From Halogeometricum sp. S3BR5-2 (GTDB lineage: Archaea; Halobacteriota; Halobacteria; Halobacteriales; Haloferacaceae): 64,000 nt of DNA. Below the pieces are notes generated by a model. The model was given only the letters and a program-made list of their open reading frames with translations. It ran no database searches and was not told the origin of the DNA. Of this stretch, positions 4,902 to 14,317 are shown in pieces (within the stretch, counting starts at the first letter, position 1; every line of letters begins with the position of its first letter). The position numbers and the translations under genes were made by a program. Location: NCBI RefSeq assembly GCF_031624635.1, contig NZ_JAMQOQ010000002.1, positions 806,001-870,000 on the forward strand. The letters are read 5' to 3'.

Positions 4902-5642
4902 ATGCTCGGCCGCTTTAGACGGACGCCCGATTTCACCATCTCCTCCGACCAGTCGCCCGGAGAGACGCTGCTCGCCGGCTTCTCCACGTTCGGCCTCGCC
5001 GGACTGACGGCCGCGGACTTCGTCGTCGACCAACTCGAACTCGAAGAGATAGGCCACCTCACCGTCGACGGCCTGCCCGCGGTGACCCCCTTCGAGAACG
5101 GCCGGCCGCGACACCACACCCGACTGTTCTCGCGGCCGGACCTCGACGTGACCGTCCTCGTCGGCGAACTGTTCGTGCCGGCCGCCGCGGGCGGCCCGTT
5201 CGCCGACGCCGTCCTCGAGTGGACCGAGCAGCGGGGAGTCGACGAGATAGCCGTCCTCTCGGGCGTTCCCATCCCCCACAGCCACGCCGACCACGAGACG
5301 TACTTCGTGGCCACCGACGACTACCGGGAGCGACGGCTGTCGGACGTCGACATCCCGCCGATGGGTCGCGGCTTCTTCGACGGCACGAACGCCGCTCTGG
5401 TCGAACGGGGCGTCGACTCCTCGCTCGGCGTCTGCGTCTACGTCACGCCCGTCCACGCGCAGGTGCCCGACGTGGACGCCGCCGTCCGCCTCGTCGAGGC
5501 CGCCGAGGCGGTGTACGGGCTGGGACTCGACGCGGATCCCTTGGAGGCGTTCGCCGGCGAGGTGCGACAGCACTACGCCGAACTCGCCGAGCGACTCGAA
5601 GCGCGCGAGGAGGAGATGCCCGAGGACCGGATGTACATGTAA
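4902..5642 (+). CDS. PAC2 family protein (proteasome-assembly-chaperone-like)
   Basis: A 246-residue protein with the PAC2 pattern: an N-terminal LLAGFSTFGLAGLTAADFVVDQL segment, the central strand VDEIAVLSGVPIPH, and a C-terminal acidic coiled segment ending in EEEMPEDRMYM. Family members are structural relatives of proteasome assembly chaperones. In archaea a role in proteasome assembly has been proposed but is not established. The gene has its own promoter in the divergent spacer with the MscS gene and is followed at once by strong inverted repeats that probably end transcription. Confidence 0.85.
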   Translation: MLGRFRRTPDFTISSDQSPGETLLAGFSTFGLAGLTAADFVVDQLELEEIGHLTVDGLPAVTPFENGRPRHHTRLFSRPDLDVTVLVGELFVPAAAGGPFADAVLEWTEQRGVDEIAVLSGVPIPHSHADHETYFVATDDYRERRLSDVDIPPMGRGFFDGTNAALVERGVDSSLGVCVYVTPVHAQVPDVDAAVRLVEAAEAVYGLGLDADPLEAFAGEVRQHYAELAERLEAREEEMPEDRMYM

Positions 5643-5643
5643 C

Positions 5644-5741
5644 TCCAGCTTTTTGCAACGAGCGGGTCGCGTAGCGACCCCGAGTCAGCAAAAAGCTGGA
5701 CCAAAAAGACGCCGCGAGGCTCGCGTTCGCTCGCCTCGCGG
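5644..5741. repeat. Compact block of nested inverted repeats
   Basis: Starting two bases after the PAC2 stop, a 13-base arm (TCCAGCTTTTTGC, 5644-5656) pairs perfectly with 5688-5700. Inside it a second perfect stem, GGGTCGC (5664-5670) with GCGACCC (5674-5680), has a 3-base loop. A third hairpin, CCGCGAGGC (5712-5720) with 5733-5741, follows. It could terminate the PAC2 transcript, since the T5 run sits inside the arm, or it could be a copy of a dispersed haloarchaeal intergenic repeat. The sequence alone cannot separate these. Confidence 0.7.
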
Positions 5742-5831
5742 TGCGAACCCTTGGAACGGCCCCGCAGTCGGCAACGCCGCGAGTCGTCCCGTCGCCGGCG
5801 GACGAGTTGCCGTGTTTAGGACGTTCGTGCA

Positions 5832-5878
5832 TTATATACCACCGGTTTCCGAAGGACAGTGCTACTCAATTAATAGTA
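5832..5878 (+). promoter_or_regulatory. trmB promoter with an exact TrmB operator motif
   Basis: A TATA-like TTATATA lies at 5832-5838. About 25 bases later, where transcription should start, is the 16-mer TACTCAATTAATAGTA (5863-5878). Its complement reads TACT-N7-GAGTA, which is exactly the cis-motif published for Halobacterium salinarum TrmB (TACT-N7-8-GAGTA). An operator at or just after the start site would block polymerase, so TrmB would repress its own gene. A purine-rich ribosome-binding sequence (GGGGTGA, 5902-5908) precedes the ATG at 5912. Confidence 0.75.
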
Positions 5879-5911
5879 AACATCAAGGGGGTCCACGGAG
5901 AGGGGTGAGAT

Positions 5912-6973
5912 ATGGCAGACGAACTGCGGACGACGATGGAGAGCGTCGGGGAGCGGTTCAACCTCGGGGAGTACGAGATAGAGGCGTACCTCGCCGTCCT
6001 CGAACACGGGGAACTCACCGCCTCGGAGATAGCCGACCGGACGGACATCCCGCAACCCCGCGTGTACGACACGGTCCGGAGTCTCTCGGACCGCGGCCTC
6101 GTCGAACTCCGCGAGTCGCGCCCGATGAAAATCGTCGCCGTCGACCCCGACGACGCGTTCGCGAACGTGAAGACCTCCTTGGACGACCTCATCTCCGAAC
6201 TGGAGGCGCGCTACACCGCACCCGCCCGCGACACCGAGGCCGTCTCCCTCGTGAAGTCGCGTTCGACCATCCTCCGCTACATCGAAGAGATAATCGAGAA
6301 CGCCGAGTACGAACTCGTCCTGTCGCTGACGCCGGACCTCCTGCGTCGCTTCCACGACGAACTCGCCTCGGCCATCGACGACGGCGTGAGCGTCGACCTC
6401 CTCATCACGCCGCTCTCGCGCGCCCCCGACCCGGCCGAGTTCGACTACCTCGAAGTCGCCACCATCGCGCGCGGCCGGCGGGGCATCACGACGCCCGTCC
6501 TCGCCGTCGCCGACGGCGAGTACTCCGTGTACGCGACGCAGGACGCCCTCCGCGACGACAAGGACCGCTACGGCGTCATCTTCAACCGCTCGGCGCTGGG
6601 CTTCCTCGTCAGCGGCTTCTTCGGCACCGTCCTCTGGACGACGGCCGAGACGCTGGCGGCCAACGGCAAGCGCCGCCCGTTCCCCCGTCGCTACGCCTCC
6701 ATCCGCCGCGCCGTCAAGGACGTGCGCGAACTCGGCGGCGAGTTCTACGCCTCCGTCTCCGGCCGGCACGTCGAGTCCGGCGACGCCATCGTCGTCGAGG
6801 GGCGCGTCAGCAGGACCACGTTCGAGGAGTCCGAAGAGGTCGCCTCCTTCGAGATGGAAACCGAGGACGGCGTCCTCGAAATCGGCGGTCTCGTCTCCGC
6901 GCTCGAAGACGTGGAGGCTCAAGAGATCATCCTCGGCCGCGACGAGGTTCCGGACCGAAAACAGTTCGTCTGA
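5912..6973 (+). CDS. trmB: TrmB-family sugar-responsive transcriptional regulator
   Basis: A 353-residue protein with a winged helix-turn-helix at about 15-80 ([19 protein letters not shown], then [14 protein letters not shown] as recognition helix) and a long C-terminal TrmB domain (about 110-350) that in relatives binds glucose, maltose or trehalose. In Halobacterium TrmB governs sugar transport, glycolysis and gluconeogenesis. Here it is next to and convergent with a complete sugar ABC transporter/dehydrogenase cluster, which suggests local control. Its own promoter carries an exact TrmB motif (5863-5878). It could be a TrmB paralog with another ligand. Confidence 0.92.
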
Positions 6974-6977
6974 ACGG

Positions 6978-7844
6978 TTACCGCGCGGCGTCGGTGCCCG
7001 AACCGGCGCCCGCGTCCTCCCCGCCCGCTTCGTCCTCCGCCTCCTCCTCGAAGACGTACAGCGTCTCCCCGCAGTCCGCGCAGACCAACACCTCGTCTTC
7101 GGGGTCGTCGTACACGCCCATCGTCCCGCCGCAGCAGTTCAGCACCGTCCTCGTCTCCTCGGTCTGACCCCCGCAGAGCGGGCAGGATTCGAGGAACATC
7201 CGGAGCGGCGCCGTCGCCGGCGCGCGGACCGACTCGGGCACGTCGAACGCCGTCATCGCCCGCACCGCGGCGGCGTCGCTGACGGCGTGCGCCCGGGAGA
7301 GCCAGATGGAGTTTCGCTCGCCGTCGACGGTGATGCCGCCGTAGTCGACGCCGCCCTCGGCGTCGAACGGCGCGGCCTCGGCGACGGCGGCCGCCACGCT
7401 CTCGTCGTCTCGGTCGCGCAGCGACGCCATCTCCGCCTCCCACGCCGACCGGAACTCCTCGGAGAGGTAGAGCGCCCCCGCGTCGTCCTCGCGGAGGACG
7501 CGCGCCTCGAACAGTGCGAACAGCACTTCCTCGCCGTCCTCGTCGCCCAGTTCGTCCGACTGACGGACCTCGCCGCCGTCGGGGACGTGCTCGAAGAGGT
7601 GCGACAGACCGAGTCGGGAGACCACGCGGGGTGCGAACTCGGGCGTGCCGGGGACGACGTACCCCCGGAGGTAGACCAACGCCCCGCCGCCGACGGCGGT
7701 CAGGAGGGCGACGGTCGTCGAGAGCGGCCAGAGGACGACGGCGACGACGAGGAGCAACGCGGCGTTGACGGCCGTGCAGGGCCAACAGCGCCGCTCGCCC
7801 GTGTAGTCGGGGCGACGAATCGCGTCGAGAAGCGACGGTGACAT
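6978..7844 (-). CDS. Membrane-anchored zinc-ribbon protein, function unknown
   Basis: A 288-residue protein. An N-terminal CWPC pair (residues 20-23) precedes two adjacent membrane segments (about 25-62). The long soluble part ends with CPLCGG, a CC pair and CADCGE, which together look like a zinc ribbon in the last third. The C-terminus is a Glu/Gly/Ala-rich disordered tail. I do not recognise the family. It is convergent with trmB (4 bases apart) and upstream of nothing obvious on its strand, so context says little. Confidence 0.8.
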   Translation of the reverse strand: MSPSLLDAIRRPDYTGERRCWPCTAVNAALLLVVAVVLWPLSTTVALLTAVGGGALVYLRGYVVPGTPEFAPRVVSRLGLSHLFEHVPDGGEVRQSDELGDEDGEEVLFALFEARVLREDDAGALYLSEEFRSAWEAEMASLRDRDDESVAAAVAEAAPFDAEGGVDYGGITVDGERNSIWLSRAHAVSDAAAVRAMTAFDVPESVRAPATAPLRMFLESCPLCGGQTEETRTVLNCCGGTMGVYDDPEDEVLVCADCGETLYVFEEEAEDEAGGEDAGAGSGTDAAR

Positions 7845-7943: not shown

Positions 7944-9047
7944 TCAGTTCTCGGGCGAGGAGTTCTCGACGGGCGAGTCCACCTCGGCCAACTGGACGGC
8001 CCGCCCCGTCTCCGAGGAGCGGTAGATGGCGTCGATGACGCGTTGGACCTGCAACCCCTCGGCGACGGTGTTCATGCCGGGGTGCTCCTCGGTGCGCACG
8101 GCCTCCAAGAACAGCTTCTGTTCGGACTTGTGGGTGTCGTTGGCCTCCGTCTCCACGTCCGTGTCGGTGAGGTGGTTGTTGCCGCCGACGCCGGACTCGT
8201 AGAACGTCAGGTCGTGGCTCGCGCGGTCGTAGCGGGCGCCCGCCTCGGTGCCGAGGACGTAGAACTCGTCGTTCGTCGGGCGGTTCGACGCCCACGCGAC
8301 TTCGAGCGAGACGGTTCGGCCGTCCGCACAGCGGATGAACGCCGTCGCGGAGTCGTCGACGTCGAAGCCCTCCGGGCCGATGTCCTCGCCCCACATCTCG
8401 ACGAAGGCGTAGTCGTCGCGGTTGCCGAAGTCCGCGCGGGTGACGGCCGACACCTCTTCGACGGTCGGGTAGTCCAGGAAGTACAGCGAGAGGTCGATGG
8501 CGTGGACGCCGATGTCGATGACGGACCCGCCGCCGGCGACGTCCTTCGAGGTGAACCACGACCCGCGGCCCGGGATGCCGCGGCGGCGGACGTAGTTCGC
8601 CTCGATGTGTTGAACCTCGCCGAAGCGACCCTCGGCCTGGTAGCTCTTCAGGATGCGGACGGGGTTGCCGAAGCGGTTGTTGAACCCGACCATGCAGACG
8701 CCGTCGGCGTCTTCGGCGGCGGCGGCGATTCGCTCCGCGGACTCCAGAGAGTGCGCCAGCGGTTTCTCCAGGAGGACGTGCAGACCCGCCTCGAGGGCGG
8801 CGACGGCGTACTCCTCGTGGAAGCGGTTCGGCGTCGTGATGATGACGGCGTCGACCTCCTCGAACATCTCCTCTTTCTCCTCGTAGGTGGCGACGCCGTA
8901 CTTCTCGGTGAAACGGTTTCGAGCGTCCGGTTGGATGTCGAGGCCGCCGCCGAGGTTCGCACCGATTTCGAGCAGGCGGTCGGCGTGGTAATGTCCGATG
9001 TTGCCGAGGCCGACGATGCCGACGCGCGTTTGGGTCCCGGAGGTCAT
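7944..9047 (-). CDS. Gfo/Idh/MocA-family NAD(P)-dependent sugar dehydrogenase
   Basis: A 367-residue oxidoreductase. The N-terminal Rossmann fold shows VGIVGLGNIGHYHADRL (GxGxxG near residues 13-18), followed by the family motif EKPLAHS, in which the Lys is catalytic. The C-terminal alpha/beta domain carries the expected DIGVHAIDLSLYFLDYP helix with Asp and His. Members oxidise or reduce sugars, inositol or pseudoaldoses using bound NAD(P). It is the last gene of the minus-strand sugar transporter cluster, so it probably acts on the imported sugar. The exact substrate (glucose, fructose, inositol or other) cannot be read from sequence. Confidence 0.9.
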   Translation of the reverse strand: MTSGTQTRVGIVGLGNIGHYHADRLLEIGANLGGGLDIQPDARNRFTEKYGVATYEEKEEMFEEVDAVIITTPNRFHEEYAVAALEAGLHVLLEKPLAHSLESAERIAAAAEDADGVCMVGFNNRFGNPVRILKSYQAEGRFGEVQHIEANYVRRRGIPGRGSWFTSKDVAGGGSVIDIGVHAIDLSLYFLDYPTVEEVSAVTRADFGNRDDYAFVEMWGEDIGPEGFDVDDSATAFIRCADGRTVSLEVAWASNRPTNDEFYVLGTEAGARYDRASHDLTFYESGVGGNNHLTDTDVETEANDTHKSEQKLFLEAVRTEEHPGMNTVAEGLQVQRVIDAIYRSSETGRAVQLAEVDSPVENSSPEN

Positions 9048-9119
9048 ATCTTTTAAATTACTATCGGGGTTGTTAAGTTTCTCGTTGCGGCATCGTTCCC
9101 GGGCTCGAAACTGTCACGT

Positions 9120-9405: not shown

Positions 9406-10596
9406 CTAGTCGTCGCTCTCGGCGGACGCGCCGCTGTCGGCGCCCGAGGGCGGCGCCGTGGTGAGGCCGTGCTGAATCGCCTCGCCCGTCTCGGTGTCGA
9501 ACAGGTGGACCTTCGAGCGGTCGAGGACGACGGACATCGACTCGTCCTCGGAGATGTCGGAGTCGGGGTCGACGCTCATCAGCAGTTGGTCGGACATCGC
9601 GCCGCGGGCGTCCTCGTCGAGGCTCACCGTCGCGTCCTCGTTGAGGAGGAGGTAGACGAATATCTCGTCGCCCATCGGTTCGAGGACGTCGGTGACGGCC
9701 TCTATCTCCTTCGTCGGCGTGCCGAGACCGTTGGTGTCGTCCACCGGGTAGACGTCTTCGGGGCGGATTCCCAGCGTCACCTCGTCGCCGACGGTGGCGC
9801 CGACGGAAGCGGGGTCGAAGTCGACTTCGATCCGCTCGTTTCTGAACCCGTTCTCGGTTATCTCGCCGTCGACGAAGTTCATCGCCGGAGAGCCGATGAA
9901 GCCCGCGACGAACAGGTTCGAGGGCTCGTTGTAGCAGACCAGCGGCGGGTCTATCTGCTGGAGTTGACCGGAGTCGATGACGGCGATTCTGTCGCTCATC
10001 GTCATCGCCTCCGCCTGGTCGTGCGTCACGTAGACGATGGTCGTGTCCAGTTCCTTGTGCAGGCGCTGGAGTTCCGTACGCATGTGGACGCGGAGTTTGG
10101 CGTCCAGATTCGCGAGCGGTTCGTCCATCAGGAACACTTCGGGGTTCCGGACGATGGCCCGAGCGATGGCGACGCGCTGACGCTGTCCGCCGGACATCTC
10201 GTCGGGCATCCGGTCGAGCATCCCCTCCAACTGGACGATGTCGGCCGCGCGTTCGACGCGGCGGTCTATCTCCTCTTGGTCGTACTTGCGGAGGCGCAGG
10301 CCGAAGGAGACGTTGTCGTAGACGTCCATGTGCGGGAACAGCGCGATGTTCTGGAACACCATCGCCACCCCGCGGTCCTTCGGCGGCAGGTTCGTCACGC
10401 GCCGGCCGCTGATGAACACCTCGCCGTCGGAGGGCATCGTCAGGCCGGCTATCATCTCCATCGTGGTCGACTTGCCGCACCCCGAGGGTCCGACGAGGCA
10501 GACGAACTCCCCGTCCCGAATCTCGAGGTTCATCTCGTCGACCGCCGTTACGTCTTCGTATCGTTTCGTCACGTCTTCGAGTGTAACTTCTCCCAT
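9406..10596 (-). CDS. Sugar ABC transporter ATP-binding protein (MalK/UgpC type)
   Basis: A 396-residue ATPase. Walker A GPSGCGKST is at residues 36-44, the Q-loop follows, the signature is MSGGQRQRVAIARA, and Walker B is VFLMDEPLANLD. The C-terminal 150 residues form the TOBE/OB regulatory domain typical of the carbohydrate CUT1 subfamily. It would energise uptake through the two permeases directly upstream (4-base spacing from the nearer). The C-terminal tail is Ser/Ala/Asp rich. A single ATPase gene implies a homodimer. Confidence 0.95.
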   Translation of the reverse strand: MGEVTLEDVTKRYEDVTAVDEMNLEIRDGEFVCLVGPSGCGKSTTMEMIAGLTMPSDGEVFISGRRVTNLPPKDRGVAMVFQNIALFPHMDVYDNVSFGLRLRKYDQEEIDRRVERAADIVQLEGMLDRMPDEMSGGQRQRVAIARAIVRNPEVFLMDEPLANLDAKLRVHMRTELQRLHKELDTTIVYVTHDQAEAMTMSDRIAVIDSGQLQQIDPPLVCYNEPSNLFVAGFIGSPAMNFVDGEITENGFRNERIEVDFDPASVGATVGDEVTLGIRPEDVYPVDDTNGLGTPTKEIEAVTDVLEPMGDEIFVYLLLNEDATVSLDEDARGAMSDQLLMSVDPDSDISEDESMSVVLDRSKVHLFDTETGEAIQHGLTTAPPSGADSGASAESDD

Positions 10597-10600
10597 TGGT

Positions 10601-11584
10601 TTACTCCTTGAGTGCTCCCGCGGTGAGTCCGCTGACGATTCGTTCCTGCGCGATGATGACGAGAATCGCGACGGGGAGAACCCCGACGATGCTCGCCGCC
10701 GCCATCAGGTTGTACGGCGTGTCGAACTGCCCCTGGTACTGGAGGATGCCCGCGACGATGGGCGCCCAACTGTCCGCCTGCCCGTTGTTCATCAGGAACG
10801 AGAAGAAGAACTCGTTGTACACGCTGATGAACGTGAGCACGCCCGCCGTGGCGACGCCGGGCGCCGACAGCGGGATGATGACGCGGAACAGCGCGCCGAG
10901 TCGGGTCGTCCCCTCGACGCGCGCCGCGTCCTCCAATCCGTCCGGAATCTGCCCGTAGAACGTCGTGAGGATGAAGATGGACAGCGGCATGAACAGCGCG
11001 CTGAACGGCAACACCATCGGGACGGGCGTGTTGAACAGGTCGGGTGAGGACACCGTCACCGGACCCATCACGATGTCGAGACCGCCGGTGAACAGCTCGA
11101 ACAGCGGCAGCAGGAACGCCGCCGGCGGGAAGTACGAGATGGCGAGAATCGCCAGCATGAGCGCTCCCTTACCGGGGAACGTCAGCCGTCCGAAGACGTA
11201 GCCCGCGAGGCTCGCCAACAGGAGGACGATGATGGTCGTCGTGATGGCGAGCACGAAACTGTTGAACATGAAGTAGTGGAACGGCACCCGCTGGAACATG
11301 GTGACGAACACCTCGACGTTGAACCCCTTCGGCAGCAGCCCCATGTTGGAGATGAGCCGGTCGGGCGTCAGCGCCAGCACGAACAGCCAGTAGAACGGGA
11401 ACAGCGTCGTCACGACGAAGAACACCGTGGCGACGTAGAACATCGCTTTGTACACCCGCTCGGGGCTCTGGATGGACCGGTCGACCCAGCGGCCGAGCGG
11501 TCCGCGTTTCATCTCCGCGTCGCCGCGGAACGGGTTCTCGCTCTCGTTGGCCGTCCCGCCGTCGGTCATAGTCTCTCTCGACAT
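10601..11584 (-). CDS. Sugar ABC transporter permease (MalG/UgpE type)
   Basis: A 327-residue inner permease with about six membrane segments (the first near residues 48-70) after a charged N-terminal tail. The EAA loop that contacts the ATPase is visible as DGLEDAARVEGTTRLGALFR about 100 residues from the end. The start ATG at 11584 is one base after the stop of the upstream permease, so translation is coupled. An in-frame ATG five codons later is an alternative start. It pairs with the other permease to form the channel for the sugar bound by the lipoprotein at 12659-14209. Confidence 0.94.
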   Translation of the reverse strand: MSRETMTDGGTANESENPFRGDAEMKRGPLGRWVDRSIQSPERVYKAMFYVATVFFVVTTLFPFYWLFVLALTPDRLISNMGLLPKGFNVEVFVTMFQRVPFHYFMFNSFVLAITTTIIVLLLASLAGYVFGRLTFPGKGALMLAILAISYFPPAAFLLPLFELFTGGLDIVMGPVTVSSPDLFNTPVPMVLPFSALFMPLSIFILTTFYGQIPDGLEDAARVEGTTRLGALFRVIIPLSAPGVATAGVLTFISVYNEFFFSFLMNNGQADSWAPIVAGILQYQGQFDTPYNLMAAASIVGVLPVAILVIIAQERIVSGLTAGALKE

Positions 11585-11585
11585 A

Positions 11586-12617
11586 TCAGAAGCCTCCCTC
11601 CGCGCTCGCGAACTTCACGATGTACACCGAGACGACGACGCCGATGATGGCCGCGGTGACGAACGCGATGGTGGCCGACGTGCCGTACAGCGGTGCGTTG
11701 AACGTCTGAACGACCATACACGACAGCGACGGAACGACGGCGCATCCCGACATCGTCTCGATGATGCCGTACACCCGCATCGACGCGATGGTGCGGAACA
11801 GCATCGCCACCAGCACCGTCGGCAGGATGAGGGGGAACGTTATCATCTTGAACTGCTGCCAGTTCGACGCGCCCGCGACTTTCGCCACGTCGTACAGCGA
11901 GCGGTCGATGCTCTGCAGTCCCGCGAGGATGAGAAGCGCCATGAACGCCGACGTCTTCCACACGTCGGCGACGACGATGAGGAACAGCGAGTCCTGCGTG
12001 CTGGCCAGCGGCGTCGTCCCGATGAGACCGAGTTGGTTGAGAATCGCCGGGTTCTGCGCGTTCCCGACGAGGAAGCCGATGTTCGGCTGGAACAGCAGGT
12101 AGAAGATCATCCCCTGGATGACGATGGGCACCGCCCACGGGATGATGATGGCGACGCGGACCCAGCGGCGGCCGCGGAAGTCCTGGTTGAGGACGAGCGC
12201 CTGCCCGAAGCCGACGATGGTCTCGAAGATGACGCTCACCACCGTGAAGATAAGCGTCACCATCAGCGCGCTCCCGAGCACGTTCGTGACGTACGGGAAC
12301 GACGAGGAGAACCCCGGCAGGAAGTTCGCCGGGAGCAGCGGGTCTTTCTGACCGGTCAGTAGCTGTACGTAGTTCTGTAGGCCGACGAACTCACCGAGGC
12401 GCGCCGCGCCCGTGAGTCGGTCGGCGAACAGAGACATCCTGAACGTCGAAAGGAGGGGGTAGATCGCGATGACGAGCAACAGCAGTAGCGCCGGTATCAA
12501 CAGCAGATACGCGTACTGCGCCTCCGACAACATCTCCATGCGCCGGACGATGGAGAGGCCTGCCCCGGAGCGCTCGCTGTCACGGATACTCCCCGAAGAA
12601 TCCTGTTCTGTACTCAT
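11586..12617 (-). CDS. Sugar ABC transporter permease (MalF/UgpA type)
   Basis: A 343-residue permease with six predicted membrane segments, the first at about residues 38-60 (a long leucine-rich run after AQYAYLL). The EAA loop is DRSLYDVAKVAGASNWQQFK. It is the first permease after the binding-protein gene (41 bases apart) and is followed directly by the second permease. The N-terminal 35 residues are polar and cytoplasmic. Family knowledge places it in the CUT1 group (di- and oligosaccharides, glycerol phosphate, glucose in archaea). Confidence 0.94.
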   Translation of the reverse strand: MSTEQDSSGSIRDSERSGAGLSIVRRMEMLSEAQYAYLLLIPALLLLLVIAIYPLLSTFRMSLFADRLTGAARLGEFVGLQNYVQLLTGQKDPLLPANFLPGFSSSFPYVTNVLGSALMVTLIFTVVSVIFETIVGFGQALVLNQDFRGRRWVRVAIIIPWAVPIVIQGMIFYLLFQPNIGFLVGNAQNPAILNQLGLIGTTPLASTQDSLFLIVVADVWKTSAFMALLILAGLQSIDRSLYDVAKVAGASNWQQFKMITFPLILPTVLVAMLFRTIASMRVYGIIETMSGCAVVPSLSCMVVQTFNAPLYGTSATIAFVTAAIIGVVVSVYIVKFASAEGGF

Positions 12618-12658: not shown

Positions 12659-14209
12659 TCAGACGCTCTGTTCGATCTGTTCGAGCGAGCTCTTGAGGTC
12701 GGACATCGCTTGCTCGGGCGTCTTGTTCTGGGCGTACGCCGCGTTGACTTCGCTGGCGATGCGGTCGGACTGCTGCGGCCAGACGACCGTCACCGGGCGC
12801 GGCACCGCGTTCTCGCCGGCCACGCGGAGCTGTTCGACGTAGCGGCCCATGACCGGGACCTGGCTCGCGCGGTCGGACTGCAGCAGTTCCGGGCGCGGGG
12901 GAATCCAGCCCATGACCTCGAACATCCGAAGCTGGAAGTCCTCGGACATCATGGCGCGCATGACCTGCGCCGCGGCGCTCTTCTGCTGGGAGCTCGAGTT
13001 CGGGTTCATCGTGATGTGCCAGCCGCCGAGGGCCGCCACGGGACCGCCCGTACCCTCGTACTGCGCTTCCTCCTGGGTGACGCCGTACGGGATGGGCATC
13101 ACGCCGAGGTCCTCGCCGAAGTACTCCTCGGAGCCGTTCTGCGCGATGGCGTACGGCCAGTTGCGGAGCGCCACGGCGTTGCCGTTCGCGAAGGGGGCCA
13201 TCGAGGGGTCCTCCACCCACTGGAGCACCGCGTCCGGCGAGATGTTCTGGTAGCCTTCCAACCCGTGCTGGTCGGGGCCCTCGCCGTGGATGAACGAGCG
13301 AATCATCCGGATGGACTGGAGCACTCCCTCCTCCTCGACGGTGATGGGTCGGTCGCCGACGGGGCCGAACAGGTTGTCGTGCGACCCGAAGTAGGCGCCG
13401 CCCCACGAGGTCATGAACTCGTTGAAGTCACAGCAGGACAGCCCCTCGTAGACGCTGGCCTGGAAGTTGAAGCCGAACTGGAGGTCGTTCTGCTGTTGGA
13501 CGTCGGCGACCATCTCGGAGAACGCCTGCCACTGCATCGACTCGGTCGCCCAGTTCTCGCCCTCGGGGTCGTAACCCGCCTGCTCGACGAGGTCTTTCCG
13601 GTACTGGACGGTCGGGAAGTCCGGGAACAGCGGGATGCCGTACAGGTCGCCGGAGTCCGGGCTCTGCGCCGTCTGGACGCTGGCCTGGAAGTACGTGTCC
13701 TCGACCTCCGAAATCCACTCGGAGGGCAGCGCCGCCGAGAGGTTCTGGATCTGCTCGCGCGCGATGAACGGAATCGTCCACCCGCTGTCCATCATCAGGA
13801 GCGCGGGCTCCTCGCGGCCGCCGTTGAGCCACGTCTGATACTGGCTCTGCCGGTTGTCCGTCACCTGCGACCCGGAGAGAATCTCCACGGAGATGCTGTC
13901 CGGGAGACCGGCGTCTCGGAGCGCCTGCCTCAGCGCGTCGGCGTTGTCCGCCGCGCGGGAGTCCGCCGCCCACTGGATGGTGATATCTTCGGACGGCGCG
14001 GAGGTGTCGATCTGCTCGCCGTTGCCGTTTCCGGAACCGGTCCCGCCGCCGCTGCCGCCCTCGGTGCCCTCACCGTCGCCGCCGTTCGTGCTGCTGATGC
14101 AACCCGCCAGACCGACAGCAACACCGGAGGCCCCGGCCGCCTTCACGAAGCGTCGTCGCGAAACGCCGCTGAGCTTCCGCCTACCTTCGGATGAATCAGT
14201 ATCAACCAT
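12659..14209 (-). CDS. Extracellular sugar-binding lipoprotein (Tat-exported)
   Basis: A 516-residue solute-binding protein. The N-terminus has a twin-arginine signal (SRRRFVK, residues 17-23), a hydrophobic core and a lipobox LAGC with Cys37, as usual for haloarchaeal lipoproteins exported folded. A Gly/Ser/Asn-rich linker of about 30 residues follows, then the type-1 binding-protein fold. It delivers the sugar to the two permeases downstream. It is the first gene of the cluster and has its own TATA box 27-36 bases upstream, just beyond which lie GTAG/CTAC repeats. Confidence 0.93.
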   Translation of the reverse strand: MVDTDSSEGRRKLSGVSRRRFVKAAGASGVAVGLAGCISSTNGGDGEGTEGGSGGGTGSGNGNGEQIDTSAPSEDITIQWAADSRAADNADALRQALRDAGLPDSISVEILSGSQVTDNRQSQYQTWLNGGREEPALLMMDSGWTIPFIAREQIQNLSAALPSEWISEVEDTYFQASVQTAQSPDSGDLYGIPLFPDFPTVQYRKDLVEQAGYDPEGENWATESMQWQAFSEMVADVQQQNDLQFGFNFQASVYEGLSCCDFNEFMTSWGGAYFGSHDNLFGPVGDRPITVEEEGVLQSIRMIRSFIHGEGPDQHGLEGYQNISPDAVLQWVEDPSMAPFANGNAVALRNWPYAIAQNGSEEYFGEDLGVMPIPYGVTQEEAQYEGTGGPVAALGGWHITMNPNSSSQQKSAAAQVMRAMMSEDFQLRMFEVMGWIPPRPELLQSDRASQVPVMGRYVEQLRVAGENAVPRPVTVVWPQQSDRIASEVNAAYAQNKTPEQAMSDLKSSLEQIEQSV

Positions 14210-14235
14210 TACAGTCAGTACTGTTAGAATCAGGA

Positions 14236-14277
14236 TTATTTATAGTTTTGGTAGCAGTAACTACGGGAGTTGTAGTA
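14236..14277 (-). promoter_or_regulatory. Sugar transporter promoter with repeated GTAG/CTAC operator
   Basis: On the minus strand a TATA box (TATAAATAA, 14236-14244) stands about 27 bases before the binding-protein ATG, giving a very short leader. Directly upstream of it is the array GTAG-N6-CTAC-N7-GTAG (14251-14275). It includes the 16-mer TACGGGAGTTGTAGTA (14262-14277), which matches the exact trmB-promoter site at TAC...AGTA with the same length. A TrmB site upstream of the TATA box would be placed for activation. The match is degenerate, so this is a candidate only. Confidence 0.55.
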
Positions 14278-14317
14278 ATCTGGTTGTCACTATTCGAGAA
14301 CGTCGAGACACCGCGAA

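Follow-up and report, generated by a model that had tools for sequence, protein, structure and literature searches.

The closest described relatives of this locus are the TrmB systems of Hbt. salinarum, Har. hispanica, and P. furiosus. The motif TACT-N(7-8)-GAGTA has been published for Hbt. salinarum TrmB (VNG1451C) in the accessible parts of PMC3794607 and of the review PMC4158304, and the latter reports that this protein binds its own promoter. According to the available text of PMC10817205, Har. hispanica TrmB binds mainly in the absence of glucose, activates gapII and fbp, and represses a sugar porter; the motif of the repressed genes lies over the BRE, and no TrmB peak is described at trmB itself, the in vivo data suggesting no autoregulation. 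For P. furiosus TrmB and TrmBL1, the accessible part of PMC4158304 describes TACT half-sites for TrmB, repression from the BRE/TATA region, and activation from upstream positions.

The present study analyzed a window of 64,000 nucleotides from Halogeometricum sp. S3BR5-2, which includes trmB and a sugar transporter cluster. The TrmB of this window belongs to the same family as the Hbt. salinarum protein, and its locus carries the same TACT-N7-8-GAGTA motif; unlike the Hbt. salinarum account, a fixed composite architecture and an overlap with the BRE are described here from alignment. TACT half-sites are shared with P. furiosus TrmB, but the spacing is TACT-N8-AGTA rather than TACT-N3-AGTA or the TGM. 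The genome resembles Har. hispanica, as far as its regulon is covered by the text consulted (PMC10817205), in that gapII and universal stress protein genes are predicted targets, whereas trmB lacks autoregulation in Har. hispanica, and the operator is absent from Haloarcula.

The gene starting 34 nt past the 5863-5878 site is trmB. Its product scored 588.5 bits against the haloarchaeal TrmB model NF047392 of NCBIfam (curated cut-off, 500) and comprises a PF01978 winged helix (residues 15-79) and a PF11495 Regulator_TrmB sugar domain (residues 110-343). The structural-database match was the TrmB entry PDB 3qph (E 1.6e-26). On the basis of the 3qph alignment and the residue table in the accessible part of PMC4158304, Y52 and D53 correspond to the DNA-contact pair Y50 and D51 of P. 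furiosus TrmB, and G326 and E332 to the sugar-binding residues G320 and E326. TrmB was present in 249 of 292 genomes of the class (E 1e-60). The features of the trmB region are as follows:

5832..5838, plus strand: TTATATA, the TATA box of the sequence-only reading, 24 bp before the site
5841..5860, no strand assigned: second palindrome AC-N4-TTCCGAAG-N4-GT, one mismatch to the AC-N4-TTYCGRAA-N4-GT of relatives, based on column conservation
5859..5881, plus strand: predicted TrmB operator GTGCTACTC-N6-TAGTAAAC with the core 16-mer at 5863-5878, based on the exact motif and the fixed position
5873..5887, plus strand: predicted BRE/TATA region within the conserved core promoter, alignment columns +10 to +24
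5912..6973, plus strand: trmB, haloarchaeal sugar-sensing TrmB regulator of 353 aa (PF01978 and PF11495, NF047392, PDB 3qph)

The core at 5863-5878 reads TACTCAATTAATAGTA on the plus strand and TACTATTAATTGAGTA on the minus strand, an exact TACT-N7-GAGTA. This was the single exact occurrence in the window, in which 0.06 would be expected by chance. The extended form GTGCTACTC-N5-ATAGTAAA also had one match in the window at up to three mismatches, compared with a mean of 0.00 in 100 shuffles. The whole genome (4.66 Mb, 22 contigs) contained 26 strand matches to the exact motif at 19 places and 5 to the reversed pattern; we place no weight on this count because CTCGAG-like coding palindromes may inflate it.

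We then compared 132 trmB loci, a nonrandom set that contains many close relatives, near copies from one genus (g7), and two copies from each of two genomes. TACTC-N7-AGTA, with at most one mismatch, was found within 120 nt of the ATG in 77 of the 132 loci, and the reversed pattern in none. With up to two mismatches allowed, 78 promoters carried the site between -56 and -44, and it began at -48, -49, or -50 in 74 of them. The operators lying elsewhere among the 77 were those of genus g8 (-62) and family f8 (-33 and -82) and one of family f6 (-27). Under the one-mismatch limit, the operator occurred in 2/31 loci of family f3, including 0/6 of the Haloarcula-like genus g27 inside it, and in 0/11 of family f2. 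Among the 80 named loci, none of the 14 from Haloarcula, Halomicroarcula, and Halomicrobium had the operator, compared with 49 of 53 from other genera (the misses were three Haladaptatus and one Halomicrococcus); these counts exclude 13 unclassified or metagenome rows, 8 of which had the site at up to two mismatches. In a quickly built tree of 95 TrmB proteins, operator presence required four state changes, and the operator and the palindrome showed no demonstrable covariation over four independent pairs. Within family f1, the operator was absent from its usual place in two genera, g14 (L278, L282, L287, and L289) and g8 (L273, L275, and L281). Those of their TrmB proteins that were in the tree branched apart from the main family clade, and they are likely another TrmB copy.

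The lack of the operator in Haloarcula fits the published lack of autoregulation in Har. hispanica. The 11 f2 genes, which we assume to be from Halobacteriaceae, have no site within 120 nt, in contrast to the own-promoter binding reported for Hbt. salinarum. Because Haloarcula-type genomes without the site still have TrmB, autoregulation is dispensable.

To describe the promoter, we aligned one row per genus, using 40 rows picked for having the site, so that the site columns are conserved by construction. Outside these columns, three elements were conserved: AC-N4-TTYCGRAA-N4-GT at -22 to -3, TAAATNNTTTA where the site ends, and GTGC immediately upstream of it. The palindrome was present in 55 of the 78 promoters; in 54 of these, its core started 16 bp upstream of the TrmB site. 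It lies upstream, its dyad 20 bp (approximately two helical turns) from that of the TrmB site. Of 13 genomes scanned in full, 12 contained one to five exact copies of the TTYCGRAA palindrome and none had the reversed control; among 25 gapII promoters, the palindrome was found in one (L162). In four genomes (G287, G126, G272, and G064), the trmB copy is the sole exact one. TARTAAAT starts 38 nt upstream of the ATG; gapII promoters carry CGAAA, the haloarchaeal BRE, at this distance, which indicates that the operator overlies the BRE with its right half. The conserved core promoter is probably leaderless, as are 72% of the coding transcripts of Hfx. volcanii in the accessible text of PMC4983044.

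A strong hairpin lies farther upstream at 5644-5700, after the PAC2 gene and ahead of trmB; its arms are CCAGCTTTTTGC and GCAAAAAGCTGG, and its energy, flanks included, is -41 kcal/mol (z -5.2). The window holds no second copy of its arm, and the hairpin is perhaps a terminator. An Rfam scan of 5600-5980 returned no match.

The presence of the trmB site, its conservation and spacing, the code that it has in common with gapII and pyk, and its absence in some lineages are features of the sequences themselves. The gapII promoters carry TTACTCG-N6-AGTTAATT approximately 74 nt before the ATG, and the gapII, pyk, and trmB sites share AC-TCR-N6-AGTWA. A matrix built from the sites of 23 of 25 gapII promoters exceeded the 99% shuffle level in 39 of 54 trmB promoters of family f1 and 14 of 16 of family f4. 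At pyk, the site occurred at -56 to -64 in 12/25 promoters, and the reversed pattern in 0/25. The triplet after AC was TCG or TCT in 22 of the 23 gapII sites (from 25 promoters), the exception being AAC in the Haloarcula-like L159; it was TCG or TCA in all nine skeleton matches among 25 pyk promoters and in all 62 among 70 trmB promoters of families f1 and f4. The gapII site is in an activating place, whereas those of pyk and trmB adjoin or cover the promoter.

Exact TACTCG-N6-AGTWAAT occurred twice in the genome, at gapII and at a universal stress protein gene, both promoters reading TACTCG-N6-AGTTAAT, but the pyk promoter of the same genome differs from this sequence by two mismatches and lacks the code. 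A perfect TrmB-type site lies directly before a universal stress protein gene in L203 (1501-1519), a match to the target type published for Har. hispanica. Among 30 fbp loci examined, fbp closely follows another reading frame in many, and no site is therefore expected at many fbp genes; the Haloarcula-like L169 carries CACTCGAAATGTAGTAAAT upstream of fbp. In the genome of the window, gapII and the GAPDH I gene are located approximately 2 kb apart (C6:104702-108733; L142 and L389).

We consider it probable that 5841-5887 is the trmB control region, through which TrmB would exert negative autoregulation by way of the BRE-overlapping operator, with release by sugar and with the second palindrome also bound. 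We infer binding, the direction of control, the sugar response, and the factor acting at the second palindrome. Under glucose scarcity, TrmB would bind the TACTC-N7-AGTA operator, and the right half of this operator being the BRE of the trmB promoter, TFB/TBP assembly would be blocked and trmB kept low. Sugar would then release TrmB. The second palindrome, two turns upstream on the same face, would be occupied either by a further TrmB dimer or by a partner protein. In our estimate, binding of TrmB at this site is very probable, and repression of trmB, given that binding, would follow with a similarly high likelihood. The earlier proposal that TrmB represses itself is thus well supported by the fixed position of the site and its overlap with the BRE, although probably by a mechanism other than the downstream block proposed at the time.

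Three other explanations of the trmB site were weighed against this one. The motif is short, and 87 places in the window match it with up to two mismatches (49 expected), so that a chance match could be suspected. However, the exact form is expected only 0.06 times and its register is kept over most of the genera examined; this conservation rules out chance for practical purposes and upholds the earlier identification of an exact TrmB motif. A different geometry had been proposed, in which the TTATATA at 5832-5838 drives transcription from near 5863 and TrmB bound at +1 blocks the polymerase. TTATATA is real, is also found in Halogeometricum limi, and lies at a fitting 24 bp before the site. 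Nevertheless, a TATA box occupied this zone in only 5 of 78 promoters, it is missing in Halogeometricum pallidum (L346) despite an identical operator, and the AT fraction over the 78 promoters was 0.49 there and 0.80 in the core-promoter zone, which lies at and just after the site. In L066 and L067, moreover, the palindrome starts a few bases past the apparent stop codon of the preceding gene, leaving little space for an upstream promoter. The window itself has a poor sequence at the conserved TATA place (ACATCAAGG), so that TTATATA could serve in this species; we regard a start near 5863 as improbable. A BRE-adjacent site could also activate rather than repress, with TrmB recruiting TFB/TBP under sugar scarcity and thereby creating a positive feedback. 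At gapII, an activated gene in the accessible text of PMC10817205, this code precedes the promoter, and at trmB the start of the site precedes the TATA zone. By contrast, the right half of the trmB site is on the BRE, closer to the ATG by approximately 24 bp than in the gapII promoters, and the repressed targets in the same source have BRE-overlapping motifs. Activation of trmB is therefore unlikely, and self-repression is favored since an operator over the BRE has the published position of TrmB-repressed genes.

The sequence-only reading had also assigned an activating TrmB site to the sugar transporter. The features of this cluster are as follows:

7944..9047, minus strand: Gfo/Idh/MocA-family dehydrogenase (PF01408, PF22725)
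9058..9073, minus strand: element ACAACCCCGATAGTAA, of related form, within the Gfo/Idh/MocA dehydrogenase promoter, missed by the sequence-only reading, based on skeleton conservation
9406..12617, minus strand: two permeases and the MalK-type ATPase of the same transporter (PF00528 twice, PF00005 and PF17912)
12659..14209, minus strand: substrate-binding protein of a CUT1-type sugar ABC transporter (PF13416/PF01547)
14235..14246, minus strand: transporter TATA box ACTATAAATAAT, conserved in relatives
14258..14278, minus strand: conserved transporter-promoter element TTACTACAACTCCCGTAGTTA (AC-AAC-N6-AGTTA), aligned in 13/13 loci of family f1 with the transporter

Another gene (6978-7844, minus strand), which many relatives have beside trmB or their sugar cluster, encodes a 288-aa protein with cysteine pairs near the C terminus, for which no Pfam or NCBIfam family scored above the cut-off.

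The 16-mer originally indicated at 14262-14277, TACGGGAGTTGTAGTA, is present but has two mismatches to TACT-N7-8-GAGTA and does not match the motif; belonging to the two-mismatch class with 87 hits in the window, it provides no evidence alone. TACTC-N7-AGTA with at most one mismatch was found at only 2 of 13 transporter promoters. Instead, a TTNACTACAAC-N4-GTAGT-like element was present in all 13 f1 loci that have the transporter near trmB, 67-70 nt before the ATG and directly before the TATA box; its half-sites, read as TACT...AGTA, are 11 bp apart in 13/13. The skeleton AC-N9-AGTWA (14258-14273 in the window) was found in 11 of the 13, with the same geometry as the TrmB sites. The earlier transporter claim is partly right: the position agrees with an activator, but the conserved unit is 14258-14278, offset from the 16-mer. 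At the dehydrogenase, AC-N9-AGTWA (at most one mismatch) and TTAAC-N9-AGTWAA were each found in 12/12 f1 loci; in all 12, the element starts 26-30 nt upstream of the ATG and either directly follows or falls inside a TATA-like TTAAC, a repressing place.

The element at 14258-14278 may be read by TrmB or by another regulator. That TrmB itself reads it, and 9058-9073, as weaker or differently tuned sites is a tentative possibility to which we give somewhat less than even chances. The skeleton AC-N9-AGTWA is common to the trmB, gapII, and pyk sites, and the gapII matrix placed 9058 at rank 2 and 14255 (score 7.5) at rank 5, within the five best places of the window, with the trmB site itself (5.4) at rank 11. 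Together, these findings weakened the view in which the transporter element counted as an altogether separate palindrome. The AAC-form gapII site of the Haloarcula-like L159 is also consistent with TrmB as the reader, gapII being a bound target in that genus (PMC10817205, accessible text). On the other hand, the triplets never swap: AAC was found in 11/11 transporter skeleton matches, and TCG or TCA in 62/62 at trmB. Furthermore, the 15 peaks given in that text do not include the ABC transporter that neighbors trmB in Har. hispanica, although this transporter may not be orthologous, and activation of uptake without sugar would be odd, the TrmB-controlled sugar porter described there being repressed.

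We lean slightly toward a different sugar regulator, either GfcR or a TrmB paralogue. The code is specific to the cluster: the AAC of the 11 transporter matches contrasts with TCR at trmB, pyk, and nearly all gapII sites, three bases differ between the transporter unit and the TrmB class in every skeleton-fitting relative, and the long transporter form (at most one mismatch) occurs once in the genome, at this promoter. For GfcR, however, the accessible text of PMC11519228 describes activation of both the GAPDH I gene and pyk in H. volcanii, and inspection by eye found the element in just one GAPDH I promoter out of 16 and in none of 25 pyk promoters; GfcR as the reader is thus unsupported by these promoters. 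The sole case, the GAPDH I promoter of G259 (L390), reads ACAACAGGGGTAGTC, an ACAAC-N4-GTAGT near the transporter element.

More tentatively, with somewhat less than even confidence, we propose that most haloarchaeal trmB promoters may be two-factor switches, in which TrmB and another regulator, or a second TrmB dimer, would occupy two palindromes two turns apart, the second over the BRE, while the sister code AC-AAC-N6-AGTWA would steer the transporter and dehydrogenase of the same cluster. No description of the composite operator was found in the literature searched; this search did not reach PMC11023807 (TbsP/TrmB in Hfx. volcanii) or the original Hbt. salinarum paper, and the novelty of the operator is uncertain. 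The conflict in the literature between own-promoter binding and a lack of autoregulation would become a rule, by which trmB is autoregulated where the operator is present and not where it is absent. The conserved palindrome is a candidate second input at the gene for a main regulator of gluconeogenesis. If the two-factor switch is true, trmB output would integrate a second signal, and loss of the module in the Haloarcula-type and f2 lines would uncouple TrmB from self-control.
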